DNA from: Aquabacterium fontiphilum
Lineage (GTDB): Bacteria; Pseudomonadota; Gammaproteobacteria; Burkholderiales; Burkholderiaceae_C
Assembly: GCF_009909205.1 (NCBI RefSeq)
Contig: NZ_JAAAPN010000014.1
Span: 62,001 to 126,000 of the forward strand
Direction of reading: 5' to 3'
Length of the DNA: 64,000 nucleotides
In this document: positions 5,156 to 22,584 of the stretch, piece by piece
Position numbering within the stretch: position 1 is the first letter of the stretch
Layout of the letters: the number at the start of each line of letters is the position of its first letter
Program-made: the position numbers and the translations under genes
The notes under the pieces: model-generated
Databases searched by the model: none
What the model saw: only the letters and a program-made list of their open reading frames with translations
What the model was told of the DNA's origin: nothing

Positions 5156-6352
5156 ATGGTAGCCGGCCTGACGGCGCGTTGGCACGACAGCCTGGACACC
5201 ATCGCCGCCCCTGCCTGGGATGCACTGCTCGACGGTGTGCCGGGCGCCCGGCCCTTTCTGACACACAACTGGCTCAAGGCGCTCACGGATCACGGATGCG
5301 CGGCGCCCGACACCGGTTGGCAACCGCTGTACCTGACCCTGGAAGACGCCGATGGCCGCCTCTGGGCCGCCTGCCCGCTCTACCTGAAAGCACACTCGTA
5401 TGGCGAGTACGTGTTCGACTGGTCATGGGCTGACGCGCACGACCGCGCACTGGCCGCGCAGGGCCATCGCTACTACCCGAAGCTGGTGTCTGCGGTGCCC
5501 TTCTCCCCCATCCCGGGGCAGCGCCTGTTGACGGCCCCGGGCGCAACTGAGGCGCGCTGCCATGCACTGCGGGCGCGGCTGCTGGCCGCTGTGCGCGCCC
5601 GTTGCACGCAAGAGGGATGGTCTGGCGCCCACCTGCTCTTCTTGTCCGAGGCCGAGGCCGGGCAAGCCTGTCAGGCCGGCTGGCTGGTGCGCCACGGCGT
5701 GCAGTTCCACTGGCTGAACCGCAGCCCCGCCCCCTATGCCGACTTCGATGACTTCCTGAGCAGCCTGCACCGCGACAAGCGCAAGAAGATCCAGCAAGAG
5801 CGCCGCAAAGTGCGCGAGGCGGGCGTCAGCTTCTCGGTTCTCGAAGGTCAGTGCATCCGGCCGCAGGACTGGGCTTTCTTCTACGGCTGCTACGCGCGCA
5901 CCTATCTGGAGCACGGGCAGCACCCTTACCTCAGCCGCGACTTCTGGATGGCTGTGGGCGCGAACGCGCCGGAGCACTGGGTCATGTTCGTGGCCGAGAT
6001 GCACGGCGAACCCGTGGCCGCCTCACTGGTGGCGCTGGACCACCAGACCGGCACGGCCTACGGTCGCTACTGGGGCAGCATGGCCCAGGTGTCGTGCTTG
6101 CATTTCGAGGCGTGCTACTACCAGCCGCTGGCCTGGTGCATCGCTCGGGGAATGGCTCGCTTCGAAGGCGGCGCCCAGGGCGAACACAAGCTGGCACGGG
6201 GCCTGCTCCCGGTCGGCACACGCTCGGCTCATTGGCTGGCACACGATGGTCTGCGCACCGCCGTAGCAGACTTTCTGGGCCGAGAAGACGCGGGCCTGTC
6301 GCACTACGTGAACGAATTAAACGACCGAATGCCGTTCAAACCCCAAGACTGA
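5156..6352 (+). CDS. GNAT-like acyltransferase of the DUF482 (peptidogalycan biosynthesis) family
   Basis: A protein of 398 residues, or 412 if it starts at ATG 5114. Family features are visible: FLTHNWLKALTDHGCAAPDTGW, APLYL-type CPLYLKAHSYGEYVFDWSWAD, RDKRKKIQQERRKVREAG, and the C-terminal FEGGAQGEHKLARGLLPV. Such proteins belong to a FemAB/GNAT superfamily branch found widely in proteobacteria; substrate is unknown. Neither start has a convincing ribosome binding site. 5156 was chosen because it fits the family N-terminus and leaves room between this gene and divergent nadE. Confidence 0.85.
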   Translation: MVAGLTARWHDSLDTIAAPAWDALLDGVPGARPFLTHNWLKALTDHGCAAPDTGWQPLYLTLEDADGRLWAACPLYLKAHSYGEYVFDWSWADAHDRALAAQGHRYYPKLVSAVPFSPIPGQRLLTAPGATEARCHALRARLLAAVRARCTQEGWSGAHLLFLSEAEAGQACQAGWLVRHGVQFHWLNRSPAPYADFDDFLSSLHRDKRKKIQQERRKVREAGVSFSVLEGQCIRPQDWAFFYGCYARTYLEHGQHPYLSRDFWMAVGANAPEHWVMFVAEMHGEPVAASLVALDHQTGTAYGRYWGSMAQVSCLHFEACYYQPLAWCIARGMARFEGGAQGEHKLARGLLPVGTRSAHWLAHDGLRTAVADFLGREDAGLSHYVNELNDRMPFKPQD

Positions 6353-12494: not shown

Positions 12495-12609
12495 GCTGGC
12501 GAGGCGGCTGGACACAGTTGTTTGCACACCTTACCCGCCGCTGTTTCTTGCAGAACGGGATAGGTGGCCTACTGAACGCCTGTCCGACTTGGCGCCAGCC
12601 CTTTGCCTC

Positions 12610-13560
12610 ATGCCTCAGCTCAACGTGCCCGCGTCCGCGCCCGTGGACCACAAAGCAACCGCCATCCGCTCGCATGTGAGCGCCCTCGCGCTCGTCTTCT
12701 GCGCCAGCCTGTCGCACCACGCGCTTGCGGGCGTGACCGCTCAACCGCTCGCCGGTGGCGGCCTGGTTCATTGGGAGACAGCGCGCACGGTGTCCATTTC
12801 AGGCCAGGCGAGTCTGTTTGGCGGCGACCCCTTTCAGAGCGTCGAGGTCAGCTACGCCCGCACCCTCAGCGGCGACCTGCACCCTGCCGAGCTGCGGGCG
12901 GGCATGGCGCTGCGCTTGCCCGAAGACCAGCCGCTGGGCTGGGGCGGTGTCGACGGGCAGGCCCGGCAGTGGCTGGACACCGACGCGGGTGGGCTGTCTT
13001 TCAACGGGCTGGCCGACGTGTTCGCGTCCGGTGGCACCAGCGACTGGGGCGTCAGCTTCGAGGGCCAAGGCCGGTCGCAGGTGCAGCTGGTCCACCGCTT
13101 CGACCTGCTTGACAGCCGCCCCATGCAGCTGCGCATGGACAGCACCGTCGGCCAGTGGCGCGACGACGATTACCGCTTCGCGCTGCGCTACATCGACCCC
13201 AAAGGCGGCCCCGCCCACACTGTCTGGCAGGACACCGTGGTCTACGACGACGACTGGCGCCCCTTGCGGGATTTCAGCCAGGTGCTCGAGCTCAAAGCCG
13301 GCGGCTATGAGCTGGAGGTCAGCCTGAACGCGGCCAGCTGGAGCAATGGCAACTGGCAGACGGCGGGGCGCACGCTCGCCAGCTTCAGTCTGCAGTCCAT
13401 CTGGCGCGACGGCGGTGTTCGGGCATCCATGCCCGGCGTGCTGAGCCCCGTGCCCGAACCCACGGCCCTATGGCTGGTCGGCGCAGGCCTGCTGGTGCTC
13501 GCAATGCGCGGCAGGCAACGCACCACATCCGCGCCCGACGCTCAAGCGGCTCGCTGCTGA
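12610..13560 (+). CDS. PEP-CTERM sorting domain-containing exported protein
   Basis: A 316-residue protein with an N-terminal signal peptide (about residues 18-40, ending HHALAG). The C-terminal sorting tag is VPEPTALWLVGAGLLVLAMRG followed by basic RQRTTS. PEP-CTERM proteins are processed by exosortase and are linked to exopolysaccharide. The mature middle (about 41-285) looks like a beta-rich extracellular domain with many Asp, Trp and Gly. It matches no family I recognise. No exosortase gene is in the window. The gene is alone on its strand and precedes the riboswitch leader. Confidence 0.85.
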   Translation: MPQLNVPASAPVDHKATAIRSHVSALALVFCASLSHHALAGVTAQPLAGGGLVHWETARTVSISGQASLFGGDPFQSVEVSYARTLSGDLHPAELRAGMALRLPEDQPLGWGGVDGQARQWLDTDAGGLSFNGLADVFASGGTSDWGVSFEGQGRSQVQLVHRFDLLDSRPMQLRMDSTVGQWRDDDYRFALRYIDPKGGPAHTVWQDTVVYDDDWRPLRDFSQVLELKAGGYELEVSLNAASWSNGNWQTAGRTLASFSLQSIWRDGGVRASMPGVLSPVPEPTALWLVGAGLLVLAMRGRQRTTSAPDAQAARC

Positions 13561-13708
13561 GCAGACGAGGCGCACCGGCACTGTGCGTGGCGCGCGCCCC
13601 TGCGCACCGCCACAGGCTCTTGCGGCTCACGCAAGGGCGTCAGGTGCTGGCACGGGTCGTGCATACAAGGTGCATGAGAGGAACGGCGAGGTCGTCGCTC
13701 CCCGAAAG
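13561..13708. other. Intergenic region upstream of the riboswitch
   Basis: This 148-base stretch must hold the promoter of the guanidine operon, because the aptamer begins right after it. I see no convincing -35/-10 pair and no coding capacity. With the aptamer and leader it makes up a 316-base gene-free region. Confidence 0.4.
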
Positions 13709-13817
13709 GGCAGCTAGGGTTCCGGCTCTGATGCATTCAGGGTGTCTGGTCCGAGAGCTGCCGGCTCAGGTCGGCGCATACCGGCATGGGCTCCACGGCG
13801 GGACAAAAGCCCGGGAG
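13709..13817 (+). promoter_or_regulatory. Guanidine-I (ykkC class) riboswitch aptamer
   Basis: The conserved signature blocks of this class occur in order: CTAGGGTTCCG at 13714-13724, TCTGGTCCGAGAG at 13745-13757, and GGGACAAAAGCCCGGGAG at 13800-13817. A P1-type helix is formed by GGCAGC (13709-13714) and GCTGCC (13757-13762), and CGGG/CCCG close the last hairpin. This class binds guanidinium and turns on guanidine export or degradation genes. It lies about 60 bases before the first gene of an importer-carboxylase operon, the classic context. GGGCTCC at 13788-13794 is complementary to the GGAGCCC that contains the ribosome binding site at 13867-13873, which may be part of the expression platform (inference). 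Confidence 0.93.
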
Positions 13818-13876
13818 GTTCGCTTCGGCTTCACGAAGTGTCCTCTCACGTGCGTTCAACCTGCCAGGAGCCCTGC

Positions 13877-14917
13877 ATGCGATCTGCCTCTTTCGCCCTC
13901 TCGTCGGCGCGTTTGCCGTTGTTGTCTTCCGCCTCCGGGCTGAAGGCCCGTGTGCTCGGTGCCATGGCCGCGGTCGCCGCCGCCATGGCACTCGCAGCAC
14001 CTTCGCCCGCACGGGCCGAAGTGAAGGTAGGCGTATCGGACTGGCCGGGCTGGGTGGCTTGGTATGTGGCCGAGCAAAAAGGCTTCTTCAAGAAGCACGG
14101 CGCCGACGTCAAGCTCGTCTGGTTTGCCAACTACACCGACTCCATCTCGGCCTTGTCCGCCGGCCGGCTGGATGCCAACTCACAGACTTGGTCCGACACC
14201 ATGGGGCCGCTGGCCAAGGGCCTGCCGCTGAAGGCCATCCTGGTCAACGACAACTCGGCCGGCAACGACGCCGTGGTGGTGTCACCGAAGATCCAGTCCA
14301 TCAAGGATCTCAAGGGCAAGACGGTGGCGCTGGAAGAGTTCAGCGTGTCGCACTTCGTGCTGGCCACCGCGCTGGCCAAGAACGGCATGAAGCCATCTGA
14401 CGTGAAGATCACCAACCTGAGCGCTGGCGATGCGGCCGCCGCCTTCATGGCTGGTCGGGTGGATGCCGCCGTGGTGTGGAACCCCTGGATCCACCAGATC
14501 GTCTCCAGTGGCAAGGGCAAGGCGGTGTTCACCTCGAAGGACATGCCCGGCCTCATCCCGGACCTGCTGGTGGCCCAGGACAAGGCCATCCAGACCAAGC
14601 GCAAGCATCTGGTGGGCATGATCAAGGCCTGGTTCGACACCGTCGCCTTCATCCAGCAGAACCCCGACGAAGCCGCCAAGATCATGAGCAAGGTCGTGAG
14701 CATGAAGCCCGACGAATACAAGGTCTTCTTGCCGGGCACCCGCTTCTTCGACGCCGCAGCCAACCAGACCGCGCTGGACCCGAAACACCCGCAGTCGCTG
14801 GTGGCGGTGGCCCCCACGATCGCGAACTTCCTGCTGGAGCACAAGCTCATTGACGGCCGGCCCGACCCCGCCAAGGGCGTGGACGCGACGCTGCTGGCCG
14901 ATGCGCTGAAGAAGTGA
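13877..14917 (+). CDS. ABC transporter substrate-binding protein, guanidine operon (urea-carboxylase-associated type)
   Basis: A 346-residue periplasmic binding protein of the NitT/TauT type. It starts at ATG 13877, six bases after AGGAG. A long signal peptide (about 1-45) ends APSPARAE. The mature protein begins VKVGVSDWPGWVAWYVAEQKGFFKKHG and has SAGRLDANSQTWSDTMGPLAKG and AGRVDAAVVWNPW, typical of the binding protein found with urea/guanidine carboxylase operons. It probably captures guanidine or a guanidino compound for the downstream permease and ATPase. Substrate is inferred from the riboswitch. It is the first gene of a six-gene operon. Confidence 0.9.
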   Translation: MRSASFALSSARLPLLSSASGLKARVLGAMAAVAAAMALAAPSPARAEVKVGVSDWPGWVAWYVAEQKGFFKKHGADVKLVWFANYTDSISALSAGRLDANSQTWSDTMGPLAKGLPLKAILVNDNSAGNDAVVVSPKIQSIKDLKGKTVALEEFSVSHFVLATALAKNGMKPSDVKITNLSAGDAAAAFMAGRVDAAVVWNPWIHQIVSSGKGKAVFTSKDMPGLIPDLLVAQDKAIQTKRKHLVGMIKAWFDTVAFIQQNPDEAAKIMSKVVSMKPDEYKVFLPGTRFFDAAANQTALDPKHPQSLVAVAPTIANFLLEHKLIDGRPDPAKGVDATLLADALKK

Positions 14918-14924
14918 GCGCGGC

Positions 14925-15788
14925 ATGAGCAGGCCACCGGCCCCTTTGCCCCCCGGGCTCCTGGACGGGCGCGCCAGCGCGCCGCCGGTGATGCGTCCGC
15001 GACGGCTGCGCTTGCTGGGCGTGCGCACCGGCATCCCCGGTGGCATCTATCTGGCGCTGGCCCTGCTGGGTCTGGCGGTGCCCGTGCTGCTGTGGACGCT
15101 GGCTGCCGTGAGCGGCGCTGACCCGGTCTTCATGCCTGGCCCCGACAAGGTGTGGGCCCAGGCCCAGGCCTGGTGGGACGATGGGCTGCTCGGCGATGCC
15201 GGCATCAGCACCTTCCGCGTGGTGGCCGGCTGGGGGCTGTCGGCCCTGATCGCCCTGCCTCTGGGGCTGCTGATCGGCACCTGGCGTGCCGTACAGGCCA
15301 TGCTGGAGCCGCTCACCGATTTCATCCGCTACATGCCCGCGGTGGCCTTTGTGCCGCTGGTGATGGTATGGGTGGGCATCGACGAGAGCGCCAAGGTGGC
15401 CGTGATCTTCATCGGCACCTTCTTTCAGATGGTGCTGATGGTGGCCGAAGACGTGCGCCGCGTGCCCATGGCCCAGATCGAGGCTGCGCAGACCATGGGG
15501 GCCACGCGCTGGGAGGTGGTCGAGAAGGTCATCGTGCCCTCGGCCAAACCGGCCCTGCTCGACACCTTACGCGTGACCATGGGCTGGGCCTGGACCTACC
15601 TGGTGGTGGCCGAGCTGGTGGCCTCGAGTTCGGGGCTGGGCTACGCCATCCTCAAGGCGCAGCGCTTTCTGCAGACCGACAAGATCTTCGCCGGCATCCT
15701 GATCATCGGCCTGATCGGGCTGCTGATTGACCAGCTCTTCCGCCTGGCGCACCGCAAGTCCTTTCCGTGGCTGTATGGCCGCCATTGA
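14925..15788 (+). CDS. ABC transporter permease, guanidine operon
   Basis: A 287-residue inner-membrane permease of the NitT/TauT (SsuC-like) family with about six membrane segments. The cytoplasmic coupling motif EAAQTMGATRWEVVEKVIVPSA (about residues 186-207) is the EAA loop that docks to the ATPase. It starts seven bases after the binding-protein stop. It forms the import channel together with the next gene's ATPase. Confidence 0.92.
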   Translation: MSRPPAPLPPGLLDGRASAPPVMRPRRLRLLGVRTGIPGGIYLALALLGLAVPVLLWTLAAVSGADPVFMPGPDKVWAQAQAWWDDGLLGDAGISTFRVVAGWGLSALIALPLGLLIGTWRAVQAMLEPLTDFIRYMPAVAFVPLVMVWVGIDESAKVAVIFIGTFFQMVLMVAEDVRRVPMAQIEAAQTMGATRWEVVEKVIVPSAKPALLDTLRVTMGWAWTYLVVAELVASSSGLGYAILKAQRFLQTDKIFAGILIIGLIGLLIDQLFRLAHRKSFPWLYGRH

Positions 15789-15814
15789 ATGATGGAAGAC
15801 CGACGGAGTCGCGC

Positions 15815-16693
15815 ATGACGCCCACCCCATACGCCATGGACATCCGCTGCGAACAGCTGTGGAAGACCTACCCGGGTGCCGCTGCGCCCGCGCTGCAAGC
15901 CATCGACCTGCACATCCAGGCCAATGAGTTTGTGGTGATGGTGGGCGCCTCAGGGTGTGGCAAATCGACGCTGTTGCGCACGATGGCGGGGCTCGAAGAC
16001 TACGACGCGGGCACGCTCACCGCCGGTGGCCTGCCCATCGACGGCCCGAGCCTGACGCGCGCCATGGTCTTCCAGCACTACAGCCTCTACCCCTGGCTGA
16101 CGGTGCTCGACAACATCAGGTTCTGCCGGCAGCTGAAGGCGCACACCGCCGAGCGCACCAGCGCCGACGTGGAAGACGCGGCCGGCCGCGCCGATGCCTT
16201 GCTGCGTCTGATGGGGCTGACCCATGTGGCCCACGCTTACCCCAGCCAACTGTCGGGCGGCATGCAGCAACGCGTGGCGATTGCGCGAGCTCTCATGAGC
16301 CGCCCGCCCATCCTGCTGATGGACGAGCCCTTCGGGGCGCTGGACGCGCAGACACGCGAGGTGATGCACGACCTGATCCAGCACGTGCACCGGCTGGAGC
16401 GCACGACCATCGTCTTCGTGACCCATGACGTGGAAGAGGCCATCTACCTGGCAGACCGGGTGGTGCTGATGGCCCCGCGACCAGGGCGCATCGACTCGAT
16501 CCACACCGTGCCCCTGCCCGAGCGCCGCACGCAGGACATGAAGCTCTCGCCCGAGTTCCTGCAACTCAAACGCCACCTGCTGGACCGCATACGCGACACC
16601 TCGGGGATGAAGACCGACCTCGATCTGCTGGAACAGCTCAGCCGATCGGCCGCCGATGTGGCTTCAGGCGCCTCGGGCGCCACCCCACGCTGA
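15815..16693 (+). CDS. ABC transporter ATP-binding protein, guanidine operon
   Basis: A 292-residue ATPase starting at MTPTPYAMDIRCEQLWKTYPG. Walker A is GASGCGKST (about residues 44-52), the Q-loop is in VFQHYSLYPWLTV, the signature is LSGGMQQRVAIARAL, Walker B is ILLMDEPFGALD, and the switch His is in FVTHDVEEAIYLADRV. This matches the nitrate/taurine/bicarbonate importer subfamily. A C-terminal tail of about 50 residues is beyond the core fold. It powers the importer encoded by the two preceding genes, 26 bases after the permease. Confidence 0.93.
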   Translation: MTPTPYAMDIRCEQLWKTYPGAAAPALQAIDLHIQANEFVVMVGASGCGKSTLLRTMAGLEDYDAGTLTAGGLPIDGPSLTRAMVFQHYSLYPWLTVLDNIRFCRQLKAHTAERTSADVEDAAGRADALLRLMGLTHVAHAYPSQLSGGMQQRVAIARALMSRPPILLMDEPFGALDAQTREVMHDLIQHVHRLERTTIVFVTHDVEEAIYLADRVVLMAPRPGRIDSIHTVPLPERRTQDMKLSPEFLQLKRHLLDRIRDTSGMKTDLDLLEQLSRSAADVASGASGATPR

Positions 16694-16713
16694 CGACTTG
16701 CCTGGACGACCCC

Positions 16714-17517
16714 ATGACCCCGAGCTTTGACATTCCCGCCAATCCACCCGGCACCCAACCCGTGGATGCCCCCAACGTCTGGCAGCGCTTTGCCCCTGAC
16801 CTGCCCGCTGAGCGGGTGATGTGGTCCGAGATCGTGCCCGGGGGCTGCCACTGGTCCTGGGTGATGCCCCGGGGCAGCCGCCTGCGCATGGTGGCGCTCG
16901 AAGCCGGCGCCAACCTGAGCATGGTGCTCTACCACGCCCGCGAGAAGCTCGAGCGCTACAACATGCCCGACTCGCTCAAGGCGCAGCACACGGCCCACTA
17001 CACCCGGGGCCACGTGCTGATGAGCGACATGGGCCGCGCGCTGGCCAGCATCACCGCCGACACCGTAGGCTGGCACGACCCGCTGGGCGCCTTGCTGGAC
17101 GCCGAACGCCTGCACGCCAAGTATGGCGATCAGAGCTTCCACACCCACCGCAACAGCATGTTCCGCAGCGGCAAGGACGGCCTGCTCATCGAGATCGGCA
17201 AGTACGGTCTGGCCCGCCGCGACCTGATTGCGCCGGTCAACTTCTTCAGCAAGGTGGCGGTGGACGCCGAAGGTCGTTTCCAGTTTGCGCCCGAGCATGC
17301 GCCGGCTGGCGCGATGGTCGAGTTGCGCTTCGACATGGACACGCTGATCGCCATCTCCACCGCGCCCCACCCGCTGGACCCGAACCCCACCTACGCACCG
17401 CGCAAGGTGGGGCTGGCCGCGTGGAAATCCGGCCCCGCCGACGCGCACGACTTCAACCGGCGCTTCCGCCCAGAGTGCGCCCGTGCGCTGCACAACGCCG
17501 ACATGGCCTACCTCTGA
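16714..17517 (+). CDS. DUF1989 protein, urea/guanidine carboxylase-associated; carboxyguanidine deiminase subunit (larger)
   Basis: A 267-residue cytoplasmic protein of the DUF1989 family, one of the two associated proteins (UAAP1/UAAP2). Pairs of such proteins in riboswitch-controlled operons are known as CgdA and CgdB, which together convert carboxyguanidine to allophanate. Visible parts include LRMVALEAGANLSMVLYHAREKLERYN, RGHVLMSDMGRALASI, DTVGWHDPLGALLDAE and RRDLIAPVNFFSKVAVD. At the position where its partner has Cys101 and Cys111, this protein has Val118 and Leu128, although His121 is kept. It may therefore be the structural rather than metal-binding subunit (inference). I cannot say which of CgdA or CgdB it is. 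Confidence 0.88.
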   Translation: MTPSFDIPANPPGTQPVDAPNVWQRFAPDLPAERVMWSEIVPGGCHWSWVMPRGSRLRMVALEAGANLSMVLYHAREKLERYNMPDSLKAQHTAHYTRGHVLMSDMGRALASITADTVGWHDPLGALLDAERLHAKYGDQSFHTHRNSMFRSGKDGLLIEIGKYGLARRDLIAPVNFFSKVAVDAEGRFQFAPEHAPAGAMVELRFDMDTLIAISTAPHPLDPNPTYAPRKVGLAAWKSGPADAHDFNRRFRPECARALHNADMAYL

Positions 17518-17535
17518 TCTGAGCAGGAGCACGCG

Positions 17536-18201
17536 ATGACCGCCACCGCCATCCGCATCCAGGAAAGCCCCCTCGACCCGGCCCAGGCCGTGGTCAACCA
17601 CGTGCTGCCATCGGGCGAGCCTTACTTGCTGCACTTCAAGCAGGGCCAGACCCTGCGCATCGTCGACCTGGAGGGCAACCAGGCCGTCGACGTGATCTTC
17701 TACAACGCGCAAGACCTGGCCGAGCATTACAGCGCCACCGACACCATGCTGGCGCAAGGCGGCATCTACCTGACCACCGGCTCGGTGCTGATGAGCAGCG
17801 AAGGTCGGCCCATGCTCACCATCGTGGCCGACACCTGCGGGCGGCACGACACGCTGGGCGGCGCCTGCGCGGCCGAGAGCAACACGGTGCGCTACGCCCT
17901 GCAGAAGAAGTACATGCACAGCTGCCGAGACAACTACCTGATCGCACTGCAGCACGCCGACCTGGCCTTAAGCAAGCGCGATCTGGTGCCCAACGTCAAC
18001 TTCTTCATGAACGTGCCGGTGACGGCCGATGGGCAACTCACCTTCGCCGATGGGGTATCGGGCCCGGGCAAGTACGTCGAGCTGCGCGCCGAGATGGACA
18101 TCCTGATGCTGGTGTCCAACTGTCCGCAGCTCAACAACCCCTGCAACGCCTACAACCCCACCCCGGCGCAGTTCCTGGTCTGGGATGCCCAAGATGTTTG
18201 A
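17536..18201 (+). CDS. DUF1989 protein, urea/guanidine carboxylase-associated; carboxyguanidine deiminase subunit (smaller)
   Basis: A 221-residue DUF1989 protein, partner of the preceding gene. It contains [36 protein letters not shown] and the full motif [12 protein letters not shown] with Cys101, His104 and Cys111, a likely metal site, followed by [15 protein letters not shown]. Partnered DUF1989 proteins deiminate carboxyguanidine to allophanate and release ammonia. The stop overlaps the ATG of the carboxylase (ATGTTTGA), so the subunit and enzyme are probably translated together. Start is ATG 17536, after AGGAGCACGCG. Confidence 0.9.
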
Positions 18202-21200
18202 CACCGTCCTGATTGCCAACCGCGGCGCCATTGCCTGCCGCATCATCCGCTCGCTCAAGGCCATGGGCCTGAAGTCGGTGGCGGTGTACTCCGAGGCCGA
18301 TGCCGATTCGCGCCATGTGGCCCTGGCCGATGCCAGCGTGTGCATCGGGCCGGCACCGGCGGCCCAGAGTTACCTGAACGTCGAGCGTATCCTGGAGGCC
18401 GCCCGAGAGACCGGGGCCGGTGCCATCCACCCCGGTTACGGCTTTCTGTCGGAGAACCCCGGTTTTGCGCAGGCCTGCGAAGACGCGGGCATCGCCTTCA
18501 TCGGCCCCACGCCCGAGCAGATGCGGGCCTTTGGCCTGAAACACACGGCACGGGCGCTGGCCGAACAGCACCAGGTGCCCTTGCTGCCCGGCAGTGGCTT
18601 GCTGAGCGATGCGACCCATGCGCGCACCGAGGCCACACGCATCGGCTACCCGGTGATGCTCAAGAGCACGGCCGGCGGTGGCGGCATCGGCATGCGCCTG
18701 GTGCGCAATGAAGCCGAGCTGGATGCCGCCTGGGAGGCCGTGGAACGCCTGGCCCGCGCCAACTTCAAGGATGCCGGGCTGTTTCTGGAGAAGTTTGTCG
18801 AGCGGGCCCGCCACATCGAGGTGCAGCTGTTTGGCGATGGCCAAGGCGCCGTGGTGGCCCTGGGCGAGCGCGATTGCTCGGCCCAGCGCCGCAACCAGAA
18901 GGTGATTGAAGAAACCCCGGCACCAGGCCTGAGCACCAACACCCGCGAGGCCTTATTGGCCGCCGCCGTGCGCCTGGGCCAGGCCGTGGCCTACCGCTCG
19001 GCCGGCACGGTCGAGTTCGTGCTGGATGCCGACACCGGCGCCTTCTACTTTTTGGAGGTCAACACCCGCCTGCAGGTGGAACACGGCGTGACTGAACAGG
19101 TCACGGGCGTGGACCTGGTCGAGTGGATGGTGAAGCTGGCGCGGGGCGACCACTGGCCGCTGGTGGCCCCCGCACCACAAGGCGCGGCCATCCAGGTGCG
19201 GCTGTACGCCGAAGACCCGGCACGCGGCTTTCAGCCCTGTGCGGGCGTGTTGACCGAGGTGAGCTTTCCGCCGGGCGTTCGGCTGGATGGCTGGGTGGAC
19301 ACGGGCACCGAGGTGCCCCCGCACTACGACCCCATGCTGGCCAAGCTCATCGTCACGGCCGACACGCGCGAGCAGGCAGTCCGCCAGCTGCAGCAGGCCC
19401 TGGCTGAGACCCGACTGGCCGGCATCGAGACCAATCTGCGTTACCTGCGCGCCGTCACGGCCGCGCCGGTGTTCGTGCAAGGCCAGGTGGTCACGCGCAG
19501 CCTGGGCGATTTTGTGTGGCAGCCGCGTGCGCTGGAGGTGATCGACGGCGGCGTGCAGACCACCGTGCAGGACTGGCCCGGCCGGCTGGGCTACTGGGAC
19601 GTGGGCGTGCCGCCCTCCGGCCCGATGGACGACCTGCACCTGCGCCTGGCCAACCGCCTGGTGGGCAACGCGCCGGGCGTGGCCGCCCTGGAATGCACGG
19701 TGGCCGGCCCCACCCTGAAGGCCCACGCCGACCTGCGGGTAGCCCTGTGCGGCGCCCCCATGCCGGTGTGGGTAAACGGCCAGCCCCTGCCCGCTGACGA
19801 GGCCATGAACCGAGCCTGGACGCTTCGGGCCGGCAGCACCCTGAAGCTGGGCACCGCGCCCCTGGCCGAGGGCGGTGCGCGCACCTACCTGGCCGTGCAA
19901 GGCGGGCTGGATGTGCCCTTGTACCTGGGCAGCGCCAGCACCTTCACCCTGGGGCAGTTTGGCGGGCACGCCGGTCGTACCCTGCGCACCGGCGATCTGC
20001 TGCATGTGCATGGCGCCGAGGACAACGCAGCCACTGAACCAAGCACTCTGCCCGCCCACGTTCCAAGCTCCCCGCCCACCCTCACCCGCCACTGGGACAT
20101 CGGCGTGCTCTATGGCCCCCACGGCGCACCGGACTTCTTCACCTCCGAGGACATCACCACCTTCTTTGGCACCGACTACCAGGTGCACTACAACAGCAGC
20201 CGCACCGGCGTGCGCCTGATCGGCCCCAAGCCGCAGTGGGCCCGCACCGATGGGGGTGAAGCCGGCCTGCACCCCTCCAACATCCACGACAACGCCTACG
20301 CCATTGGTGCCATCGACTTCACAGGCGACATGCCCGTGATCCTGGGCCCCGATGGCCCCAGCCTGGGCGGCTTTGTCTGCCCCGCCGTGGTGGTGGCCGC
20401 CGAGCGCTGGAAGTTGGGCCAGCTCAAGGCGGGCGACACGGTGCGCTTCCACGCCATCCACATCGAGCAGGCGCTGGCCTTGCAGGCGGCCCAGGACGCC
20501 TTCCTGGCCGGCACCGGCCCCGCCCCGGTGCTGCCGGCTGGCGTGCCCGCGCATGATGTCGATCAGGTGCTGAGCCCCATCCTCGATCAACGCCCCGCCC
20601 AGGGTGACACCCCCGCGCGCTGCATCCGCCAGGCCGGCGACCGCTATGTGTTGATCGAGTACGGCCCGCTGGTGCTGGACCTGGAGCTGCGCTTCCGCGT
20701 GCACGCGCTGATGCAGGCCTTGCAGGCTCAGCGCGATCAAGGCCGGCTGCCAGGCGTCGTCGACATGACGCCAGGCATCCGCTCACTGCAACTGCATGTG
20801 GACCCGGCCGCCCTGCCCCGGCCACAGCTGCTGGCGGCCATCAACGAGGCCGAAGCCAGTCTGCCCGCCATCGACGACCTGACGGTGCCGACCCGCACCG
20901 TGTGGCTGCCCCTGTCGTGGGACGATCCAGCCACCCGCGAGGCCATCGACAAGTACATGCAGTCGGTGCGGCCCGATGCGCCCTGGTGCCCCAGCAACAT
21001 CGAGTTCATCCGCCGCATCAACGGGCTGGACAGCATCGACGAGGTGCAGCGCATCGTCTTCGAGGCCAGCTACCTGGTCATGGGCCTGGGCGATGTCTAC
21101 CTGGGCGCCCCGGTGGCCACACCGCTCGACCCGCGCCACCGTCTGGTCACCACCAAGTACAACCCCGCCCGCACCTGGACGCCCGAGAACGCCGTGGGCA

Positions 21201-21847
21201 TCGGTGGCGCCTACCTGTGCGTGTACGGCATGGAAGGCCCGGGGGGCTACCAGTTCGTGGGCCGCACCGTGCAGATGTGGAACCGCTGGCGCGATGCGCG
21301 ACACGGCGCACGCGACTTCGAGCCCGGCAAACCCTGGCTGCTGCGCTTCTTTGACCAGATCCGCTTCTACCCCGTCAGCGAAGCCGAGCTGGCCCGGATG
21401 CGCCGCGACTTCCCCGCGGGTCGCTGCCATGTGAAGATCGAGCACGGCAGCTTCAGCCTGGGCGCCTACCGTCGCTTTCTGCGCGACGAGGCCGACAGCA
21501 TCGAGGCCTTCAGGGTGCAGCAACGCCAGGCCTTCCACGATGAGCGTGAGCGCTGGAAGGCCTCTGGCCAGGATGGCAGCCTCAGCGAGCTGACGATGGA
21601 CGCGCCGCCTGAGGACGACACCTTGCCCGAGGGCGCCACGGCGGTGGGCAGCCCGGTGCCCGGCAGCGTGTGGAAGGTGCTGGTGGCAGCGGGCGATGCG
21701 GTGGCCGAGGGCCAGACCCTGGCCGTGGTCGAGTCGATGAAGATGGAGTTTCCGGTGCTCGCGCCGATGACGGGCCAGGTTCAGGCCGTACGCTGTGCCG
21801 AAGGCGGCGGCGTCACGGCCGGGCAGACCGTGGTGGTGCTGGCCTGA
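18194..21847 (+). CDS. Guanidine carboxylase (biotin-dependent; urea carboxylase family)
   Basis: A 1217-residue single-chain enzyme. Residues about 1-450 are the biotin carboxylase domain ([25 protein letters not shown] grasp loop, [10 protein letters not shown]). Residues about 465-1105 are the KipI/KipA-type carboxyltransferase ([42 protein letters not shown]). The C-terminal carrier has the biotinyl Lys1183 in VVESMKMEF. Family members were named urea carboxylases; those behind guanidine-I riboswitches with DUF1989 pairs are guanidine carboxylases, so that name is preferred. ATG 18194 fits the family start; ATG 18185 is an alternative. Allophanate hydrolase does not follow. Confidence 0.93.
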
Positions 21848-21870: not shown

Positions 21871-22584
21871 TCAGGCCGCCTGGGCCAGTCGCCCCACATC
21901 GGGGATGTGGATGTCGCGCCGGTTCACGGCGATCAGGCCCCGGGCCTGCAACTCGTGCAGGATGCGCGAGAAATGCTCGGGCGTGACCGACAGCAGCGAG
22001 GCCAGCGTGCTCTTGCTGAAGGGCAACGACACCGTAACCTCCGCGCCCGCCTGCTCAGGCGAGCTCTGTCGGGCCTGGGCGCGCAGGAGGTAATCCACCA
22101 CCCGTCGCACGCTCGAGCGCAGCGTCAGCGCCTCGATGTCACGCACCCGATCATTGAGTCGGCGCGACAGGCCAGCCAGCATGCGCGCCGCCAGCCCCGG
22201 ATCTCGCGCGAGTTCGTCCAGCACCACGGCCGCCGGCACCCGCAGCACCGCGGCTTCAGTGAGCGCGCGGGCGCAGGCCACGTGCACGGCCTGGTCGAAC
22301 ACGATGGATTCGCCCAGATGACCGTGCTGCGGCACCACCTCGATGACTTTCTCCTGCCCGTTGTCGGCGCGGGCAAACAGCTTGATCTGGCCGCTGAGCA
22401 CGATGTAGAGCCCCTCGGTAGGCTGGCCGGCTTCGAACAATGTTGCGCCGCGAGGCAAGCGGCGGATCTCGGATGCAGCGGCCACGCGAGCGCGCAAGGC
22501 CGCGGACGTGCCGCCAAACAGGGTCGTCTGGGCGAGGCCGTCTGCCACCACCTCGGTCACCTGTTTGTCGTCCACGTTGCTCAT
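21871..22584 (-). CDS. Crp/Fnr family transcriptional regulator
   Basis: A 237-residue regulator starting MSNVDDKQVTEVVADGLAQ, with AAAGGATCC as ribosome binding site. The N-terminal cyclic-nucleotide-binding-like domain (about 15-130) has LPRGATLFEAGQPTEGLYIVLSGQIKLFA and GHLGESIVFD. The C-terminal helix-turn-helix is FSKSTLASLLSVTPEHFSRILHELQARGLI. The cysteine cluster that holds the iron-sulfur centre in FNR is absent, so oxygen sensing by that route is unlikely. It faces the guanidine operon convergently across 23 bases. Its targets are unknown; the adjacent DUF3299 gene is a candidate by proximity only. Confidence 0.9.
   Translation of the reverse strand: MSNVDDKQVTEVVADGLAQTTLFGGTSAALRARVAAASEIRRLPRGATLFEAGQPTEGLYIVLSGQIKLFARADNGQEKVIEVVPQHGHLGESIVFDQAVHVACARALTEAAVLRVPAAVVLDELARDPGLAARMLAGLSRRLNDRVRDIEALTLRSSVRRVVDYLLRAQARQSSPEQAGAEVTVSLPFSKSTLASLLSVTPEHFSRILHELQARGLIAVNRRDIHIPDVGRLAQAA

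Follow-up and report, generated by a model that had tools for sequence, protein, structure and literature searches.

The 64,000-nucleotide stretch of the Aquabacterium fontiphilum genome examined here (contig NZ_JAAAPN010000014.1, positions 62,001 to 126,000; hereafter the window) carries a guanidine-I riboswitch aptamer followed by six genes for an ATP-binding cassette (ABC) importer, two DUF1989 proteins, and a biotin-dependent carboxylase. We consider it probable that these genes form a guanidine-assimilation operon that belongs to the known guanidine carboxylase pathway, is gated twice, by a sigma-54 type promoter and a translational riboswitch, and shares a distant allophanate hydrolase (AH), and that the urea names attached to the genes are misleading.

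A Probable Guanidine Operon Under Urea Names

In the whole window, a single match exceeds the gathering score in cmscan, and it covers the full guanidine-I model (positions 1-107). A permissive scan of 13500-14000 returned no other family up to E=1, and no further guanidine-I match is found in the genome. The operon is laid out as follows:

13703..13819, + strand: Guanidine-I riboswitch aptamer (RF00442, 88.2 bits against a gathering score of 63, E 1.9e-14)
13877..14917, + strand: substrate-binding protein (SBP) of an ABC importer, SsuA/NMT1 family, predicted guanidine binder (TIGR01728, 216.1 bits against a cut-off of 163.5)
14925..15788, + strand: ABC importer permease (PF00528)
15815..16693, + strand: ABC importer ATPase (PF00005; ATG chosen as start, scanned from 15812, open frame beginning at 15767)
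16714..17517, + strand: DUF1989 protein UAAP1, predicted carboxyguanidine deiminase subunit without the UAAP2 Cys set (TIGR03425, 337.9 bits against 205.95)
17536..18201, + strand: DUF1989 protein UAAP2, predicted metal-binding catalytic carboxyguanidine deiminase subunit (TIGR03424, 339.9 bits against 284.7)
18185..21847, + strand: predicted biotin-dependent guanidine carboxylase, family name urea carboxylase (TIGR02712 urea_carbox, 1858 bits against 1303.85)

All six genes lie on the plus strand with short gaps, and those of UAAP2 and the carboxylase share 17 bases. The gene that follows points the opposite way, encoding a Crp-type regulator on the minus strand and ending at 21871 (convergent), and the end of the operon is therefore placed at 21847. 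Just 5' of the operon, 12589-13560 encodes a protein with a PEP-CTERM sorting motif. An initial annotation of this DNA had described an aptamer from 13709 in front of an ABC importer, two DUF1989 proteins, and a biotin-dependent carboxylase. The significant covariance-model match and the family matches confirm both the element and the gene order, and only the start of the aptamer moves, six bases earlier. It had also foreseen a label of urea degradation, and the NCBIfam name of the carboxylase is indeed urea carboxylase, and that of each DUF1989 protein urea amidolyase associated protein. The SBP, for its part, falls below the cut-off of the urea SBP model TIGR03427 (177.1 against 333.9).

The substrate assignment is carried by residues of the carboxylase, a protein of 1220 amino acids with biotin carboxylase, carboxyltransferase, and biotinyl domains and the only member of its family in the genome. 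Residues 3-1219 align with the urea amidolyase of Kluyveromyces lactis (3va7/5i8i) at 1143.8 bits, and Asp711 falls on Asn1330 of that enzyme (AIN-FTGD becoming AID-FTGD), position 1330 having been assigned by count along the 1829-residue K. lactis chain. Asp970 corresponds to K. lactis Asp1584, also by count, at a GLGD motif where the match line is identical and the K. lactis letters are not displayed. Both residues were placed by this alignment and not by direct reading of profile positions 701 and 956. Their codons are:

20315..20317, + strand: codon of Asp711, equivalent of K. lactis Asn1330 (alignment to 3va7/5i8i)
21092..21094, + strand: codon of Asp970 (GLGD), equivalent of K. lactis Asp1584 by count (alignment identity at GLGD)

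According to the methods portion of PMC11410670, guanidine carboxylases require Asp at 1584, and Asp at 1330 separates them from urea carboxylases. The enzyme described here belongs to TIGR02712 and has Asp at both positions, so that the residue to which the initial annotation had pointed, that equivalent to Asn1330, bears the published guanidine carboxylase mark (D711). Among 80 named relatives, Asp occupies position 711 in 78 and position 970 in all 80, and both are present in 30 of 30 genus loci examined. The two remaining relatives (L084 and L090, Verrucomicrobiota) have Cys at the specificity position; AH and UAAP1/2 lie nearby in both.

PMC11410670 recognises CgdA and CgdB by their position in a DUF1989 tree, where they descend from the CgdA/CgdB ancestor. 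Here, adjacent UAAP1- and UAAP2-type DUF1989 proteins, both above cut-off, stand beside the carboxylase. In UAAP2, residues C101, H104, D105, C111, H128, and C130 are kept in every relative covering the position (77 or 78 of the 80 loci). Because this Cys/His/Asp set is invariant, while no Cys of UAAP1 is kept above 95% (77 relatives), UAAP2 is the likely holder of a metal site. Taken together, these residues and families support the guanidine pathway put forward in the initial annotation.

A Predicted Translational Switch

The leader between the aptamer and the first gene contains a Shine-Dalgarno (SD) sequence that is exactly complementary to a strand of the aptamer itself:

13788..13794, + strand: anti-SD strand GGGCTCC, 3' strand of the second stem of the aptamer (exact complement of the SD and its partner in the free fold)
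13821..13840, + strand: linker hairpin CGCTTCG...CGAAGTG between aptamer and ribosome-binding site (predicted folds; no T run after it)
13867..13873, + strand: Shine-Dalgarno GGAGCCC of the first gene (sequence)

In the free fold of the window's leader, the probability of being unpaired is 0.0 at all seven SD bases, and with the aptamer enforced it becomes 0.21, 0.02, 0.75, 0.73, 0.76, 0.96, and 0.94 along the motif. The free fold is the more stable (-91.5 against -70.7 kcal/mol with the aptamer enforced), which fits an OFF state without ligand, these energies omitting the ligand and co-transcriptional folding.

The same arrangement recurs in a set of 42 genomes of the genus, this one included. 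Across 43 sites, the contiguous SD/anti-SD duplex averages 6.77 pairs, against 5.20 with the SDs of 275 other GGAG-led frames (uncurated open frames of at least 150 amino acids behind GGAG). The highest of 1000 control draws reached 5.88, and 6 of the 43 sites have only 4 or 5 pairs. Pairing of the SD to the aptamer is predicted with P>0.5 in 41 of 44 natural leaders, of which 43 were folded as one set (40 above 0.5, mean 0.89) and the last gave 0.68, as compared with 65 of 344 aptamer/other-gene chimeras (mean 0.20). The first GGAG was taken as the SD throughout; a later GGAG is likelier in genomes G025 and G009, which may account for two of the three failures. At the G039 site, the contig ends 31 bases after the aptamer and leaves no leader to fold. 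These results fit a translational ON switch, the direction of which we infer from the predicted folds.

A switch that acts on transcription, through a Rho-dependent or non-canonical terminator, and not on ribosome access is possible, and we regard it as the less likely of the two mechanisms. The guanidine-I class is usually transcriptional according to the part of PMC12186494 consulted, and a terminator mechanism is presumed for Vreelandella in section 6 of PMC12508155. In the window, however, the terminator scan lists no intrinsic terminator between 13819 and the start codon, nor is there any terminator-like site there. An intrinsic terminator platform was accordingly rejected, the two matches at 13905 falling inside the first gene. 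The excess of SD/aptamer pairing in natural leaders over the chimeric controls likewise speaks for ribosome access, with the limit that sequence cannot speak on Rho.

A Sigma-54 Type Box Before the Aptamer

Upstream of the predicted switch lies a candidate promoter:

13648..13663, + strand: sigma-54 type -24/-12 box TGGCACG-N4-GTGCA (11 of 12 consensus letters)

This box, TGGCACGGGTCGTGCA, begins 55 bases 5' of the aptamer and displays GG at -24, GC at -12, and the conserved flanks of the sigma-54 consensus, against which all sites were scored. In the genus, 43 sites scored 9 (3 sites), 10 (22), 11 (14), or 12 (4), with the boxes lying 48-89 bases 5' of the aptamer. The remaining two sites (G039 and G005) score 11 and 10, so that 45 of 45 reach at least 9 of 12. 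Letter shuffles reached 9 in 157 of 4300 cases; this null and that for NtrC below are single-letter shuffles, and the sites are phylogenetically non-independent. Among 58 sites found by pattern in named relatives, a score of at least 9 is seen in all 50 that are neither cyanobacterial nor from Nitrosomonas (several of these 50 come from the same genomes as the genus set), in none of the 7 cyanobacterial sites, and not in the one Nitrosomonas site. Cyanobacteria are not known to possess sigma-54.

The genome encodes two copies of RpoN as well as NtrC, and NtrC-like boxes scoring at least 11 accompany 45 of 101 sites, as compared with 40 of 2020 shuffles. Two further sigma-54 type boxes with 11 of 12 letters occur in the window, at 6192 (+) and 44564 (-). 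Several relatives have a second guanidine-I site (L219:1969-6340; also L218, L221, L223, L199, and L214), again with a sigma-54 box. These second sites precede an SBP-like gene (32-37% to the SBP of the window, tblastn) and a gene for a protein like the biuret hydrolase BiuH. The second locus of L219 further contains an SDR and a creatininase-family protein (349.6 against 235 bits), its BiuH-like protein being under the cut-off (254.4 against 370). Such loci are possibly part of an upstream guanidino-compound pathway.

The Last Enzyme Is Encoded Elsewhere

The initial annotation had envisaged carboxylation, deimination, and then hydrolysis of allophanate. Genes predicted for the first two steps are indeed in the operon, and the third is absent: neither the genes of the window nor a profile search of the genome places an AH gene there. 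The only AH above cut-off in the genome lies on another contig (G000:C8:134682-136397; 757.3 against 511.05), within a cluster that encodes a biuret hydrolase, an ABC set, a further ABC ATPase, a BiuH-like protein, the AH, a small AtzH-like protein (Pfam) behind it, and a GntR-type regulator. The biuret hydrolase belongs to the BiuH family (411.1 bits against the NF050097 cut-off of 370, and 413.3 in a second search), and the BiuH-like protein stays below that cut-off (267.4). In PMC12625717, clusters of the type biuH-trtA-atzF-bmpA/nupABC-gntR are assigned to triuret/biuret degradation, and section 6 of PMC12186494 describes AH together with the other pathway genes in three enterobacteria. 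A riboswitch at the AH cluster was looked for and rejected, the surrounding 20 kb containing no Rfam match above the gathering score.

In the genus, guanidine-I matches were found in 35 of the 42 genomes, the carboxylase in 34, AH in 33, and BiuH above cut-off in 24. The 7 genomes without an aptamer match also have no carboxylase, AH, or BiuH match, two of them, G022 and G029, being only 75% and 71% complete. G039 (53% complete) has the aptamer and AH and no carboxylase match. AH is present in 32 of 34 carboxylase genomes. In 14 of these 32, it immediately follows the carboxylase, and in the other 18 it is distant or on a different contig. Of the 18 split genomes, 17 have the AH adjoining a BiuH-like gene, and G013 has it on the same contig as a biuret hydrolase. 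No genome of the 32 has AH in both places (AH matches at E<=1e-100). Seen from the other side, the 24 genomes with a biuret hydrolase above cut-off have AH away from the operon in 16 and in the operon in 8, and the biuret clusters of those 8, read directly (L245-L252), contain no AH match at 1e-12 in any case. The placement is therefore either/or.

G008 has both loci on one 4.87-Mb contig, 1.39 Mb apart, and the split in that genome is therefore not an effect of assembly. G040, which lacks a BiuH match, has three AHs. A second AH copy, below cut-off and with an in-frame stop, is present in G006 and G010; these second copies (L244 of G006 and L243 of G010) lie outside the main operon, next to UAAP1/2-like and BiuH-like genes. 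Of the 80 named loci, at least 10 of which represent genomes of the genus, 52 have AH immediately after the carboxylase, 7 have it elsewhere in the locus, and 14 have none, the remaining 7 loci being too short to tell.

The operon could also be complete as it stands, if allophanate lost CO2 to give urea that is then split by urease, without the AH of the biuret cluster. The position of AH outside the operon, the lack of an Rfam match at its cluster, and the presence of urease in the genome would agree with this route. It is nevertheless doubtful, as AH is above cut-off in all 26 carboxylase genomes of the genus that are at least 90% complete and at most 5% contaminated (the AH of G002 being cut by a contig end), and the 8 genomes with a biuret cluster lacking AH all have one in the operon; urease was surveyed in this genome only. 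The preferred explanation, that one AH serves both the guanidine and biuret pathways, is probably correct.

History of AH Placement

An AH tree of 89 rows, 86 of them distinct, built by a quick method and rooted at the midpoint, separates two AH lineages. Of the 19 biuret-cluster AHs, from the 18 split genomes and G039, 18 form one branch with a support of 100, and that of G013 sits on a long branch outside these 18. The AHs of genus operons fall among those of other Burkholderiales operons in 11 of 14 cases, and the other three, from G026, G036, and G041, belong with the biuret lineage, a pattern suggestive of relocation. In a carboxylase tree of 44 rows, 39 of them labelled, well-supported branches force at least three changes between AH placements. 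This tree covers 15 of the 18 split genomes, all but G037, whose match is full, and G005 and G018, whose matches are partial or broken, and L032, L033, and L042, which have no AH within 10 kb, are unlabelled.

On balance, we lean toward a broader view in which guanidine and biuret/triuret breakdown form one nitrogen-scavenging unit. Its single shared AH would be housed in one cluster or the other and never in both, with a placement that changed at least three times and a biuret-lineage enzyme in some guanidine operons, and its guanidine arm would act as an AND gate, in which a sigma-54 promoter is combined with a translational guanidine-I switch.

Proposed Pathway and Physiological Role

In the proposed mechanism, the transcript would start from the sigma-54 promoter at 13648, with NtrC as its probable activator when nitrogen is limiting. 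Without ligand, GGGCUCC (13788-13794) would pair with GGAGCCC (13867-13873), and binding of guanidine to the aptamer would free the SD of the first gene. The ABC importer would then bring guanidine in, the carboxylase would convert guanidine, bicarbonate, and ATP to carboxyguanidine, and UAAP1/UAAP2 (CgdAB) would deiminate carboxyguanidine to allophanate. Allophanate would finally be hydrolysed by the single AH of the genome, kept in the biuret/triuret-type cluster elsewhere, so that the two pathways would share one last enzyme.

Several observations weigh against this explanation. The first two SD bases stay mostly paired when the aptamer is enforced, and no NtrC box is found in the window, where the score is 9, a background level. 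A separate GntR regulator accompanies the AH cluster, which lacks any Rfam match, and the supply of AH on guanidine as the sole nitrogen source is thus presumed. Sigma-54 control of that cluster is not claimed, as the one box near it (L016:3044, 10 of 12) is not consistently matched in the clusters of relatives. Two genomes, G024 (89% complete) and G035 (82% complete, the carboxylase cut by a contig end), have a carboxylase and no AH match. Some assemblies are fragmentary, and in G005 and G012 contigs end at or soon after the carboxylase, where an unassembled operon AH is possible. Finally, in the closest relative, G034 (L208; carboxylase 95% identical), the aptamer stands directly before UAAP1 with no importer gene between.

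This last point bears on the importer for external guanidine that the initial annotation had proposed. The importer genes are present in the operon of the window; as a constant part of the genus system, the importer does not hold up. The SBP was matched at E<=1e-60, a threshold at which a diverged SBP is missed, in 14 of 42 genus genomes, as compared with 34 of 42 for the carboxylase. Because of this count, and of the absence of importer genes before UAAP1 in G034, the ABC importer appears to be a feature of this genome and some relatives and not of the whole genus. Importer genes are also absent between aptamer and UAAP1 in L189, L192, L198, and L200, the leaders of which, by eye, look like what a deletion of all but the beginning of the SBP gene would leave.

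It is unlikely that the operon serves mainly guanidine detoxification and not nitrogen supply. Many guanidine riboswitches are tied to exporters (PMC12186494, section 4), and 20 of the 34 carboxylase genomes of the genus have no SBP match at the above threshold, yet the operon of the window includes an ABC importer, and a sigma-54 type box precedes every one of the 45 genus sites. A true urea carboxylase (urea amidolyase) operon whose aptamer only happens to sense guanidine is suggested by the NCBIfam names and is very improbable, given a guanidine-I aptamer in front, two DUF1989 deiminase-type proteins that urea carboxylation would presumably not need, a urease alpha subunit encoded elsewhere in the genome, and Asp711 where urea carboxylase has Asn, a difference on which a urea carboxylase reading of the enzyme was rejected.

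Relation to Known Systems

Guanidine carboxylase operons under guanidine riboswitches have been described in Pseudomonas syringae, Raoultella/Erwinia/Klebsiella, Vreelandella boliviensis, and ammonia-oxidising bacteria (consulted parts of PMC11410670, PMC12186494, and PMC12508155). The Aquabacterium operon has in common with them the guanidine-I aptamer, an ABC importer with SBP, cgdA/cgdB (UAAP1/2), and a carboxylase with the Asp signature. It differs in that it has no AH, in that its expression platform is predicted to be translational and not a terminator, and in its sigma-54 type box, which goes unmentioned in the consulted parts of those descriptions. The AH cluster of the genome resembles the biuret/triuret cluster portrayed in PMC12625717 in its biuret hydrolase, BiuH-like protein, ABC genes, AH, AtzH-like protein, and GntR regulator, with the difference that its AH apparently must also serve guanidine, because the guanidine operon has none. 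Compared with the urea amidolyase of K. lactis, which it resembles over nearly its entire length, the carboxylase is not fused to AH, has Asp in place of Asn1330, and is accompanied by a riboswitch and deiminase genes. A literature search turned up nothing on an AH common to guanidine and biuret breakdown, and nothing on sigma-54 in connection with guanidine riboswitches, a weak negative, as most subscription papers, probably including the primary pathway papers, fall outside its coverage.

The core of the system is thus known biology, here in a variant whose last enzyme is outsourced and probably shared. The first value of this work is one of correct naming, in that genes labelled as urea degradation would belong to guanidine catabolism. 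What is new is a case, open to experimental test, in which two breakdown routes would rely on the same enzyme gene. In addition, all guanidine-I sites read in the genus are preceded by a sigma-54 type box, which is an argument for guanidine as a nitrogen source for these bacteria and not only a stress.

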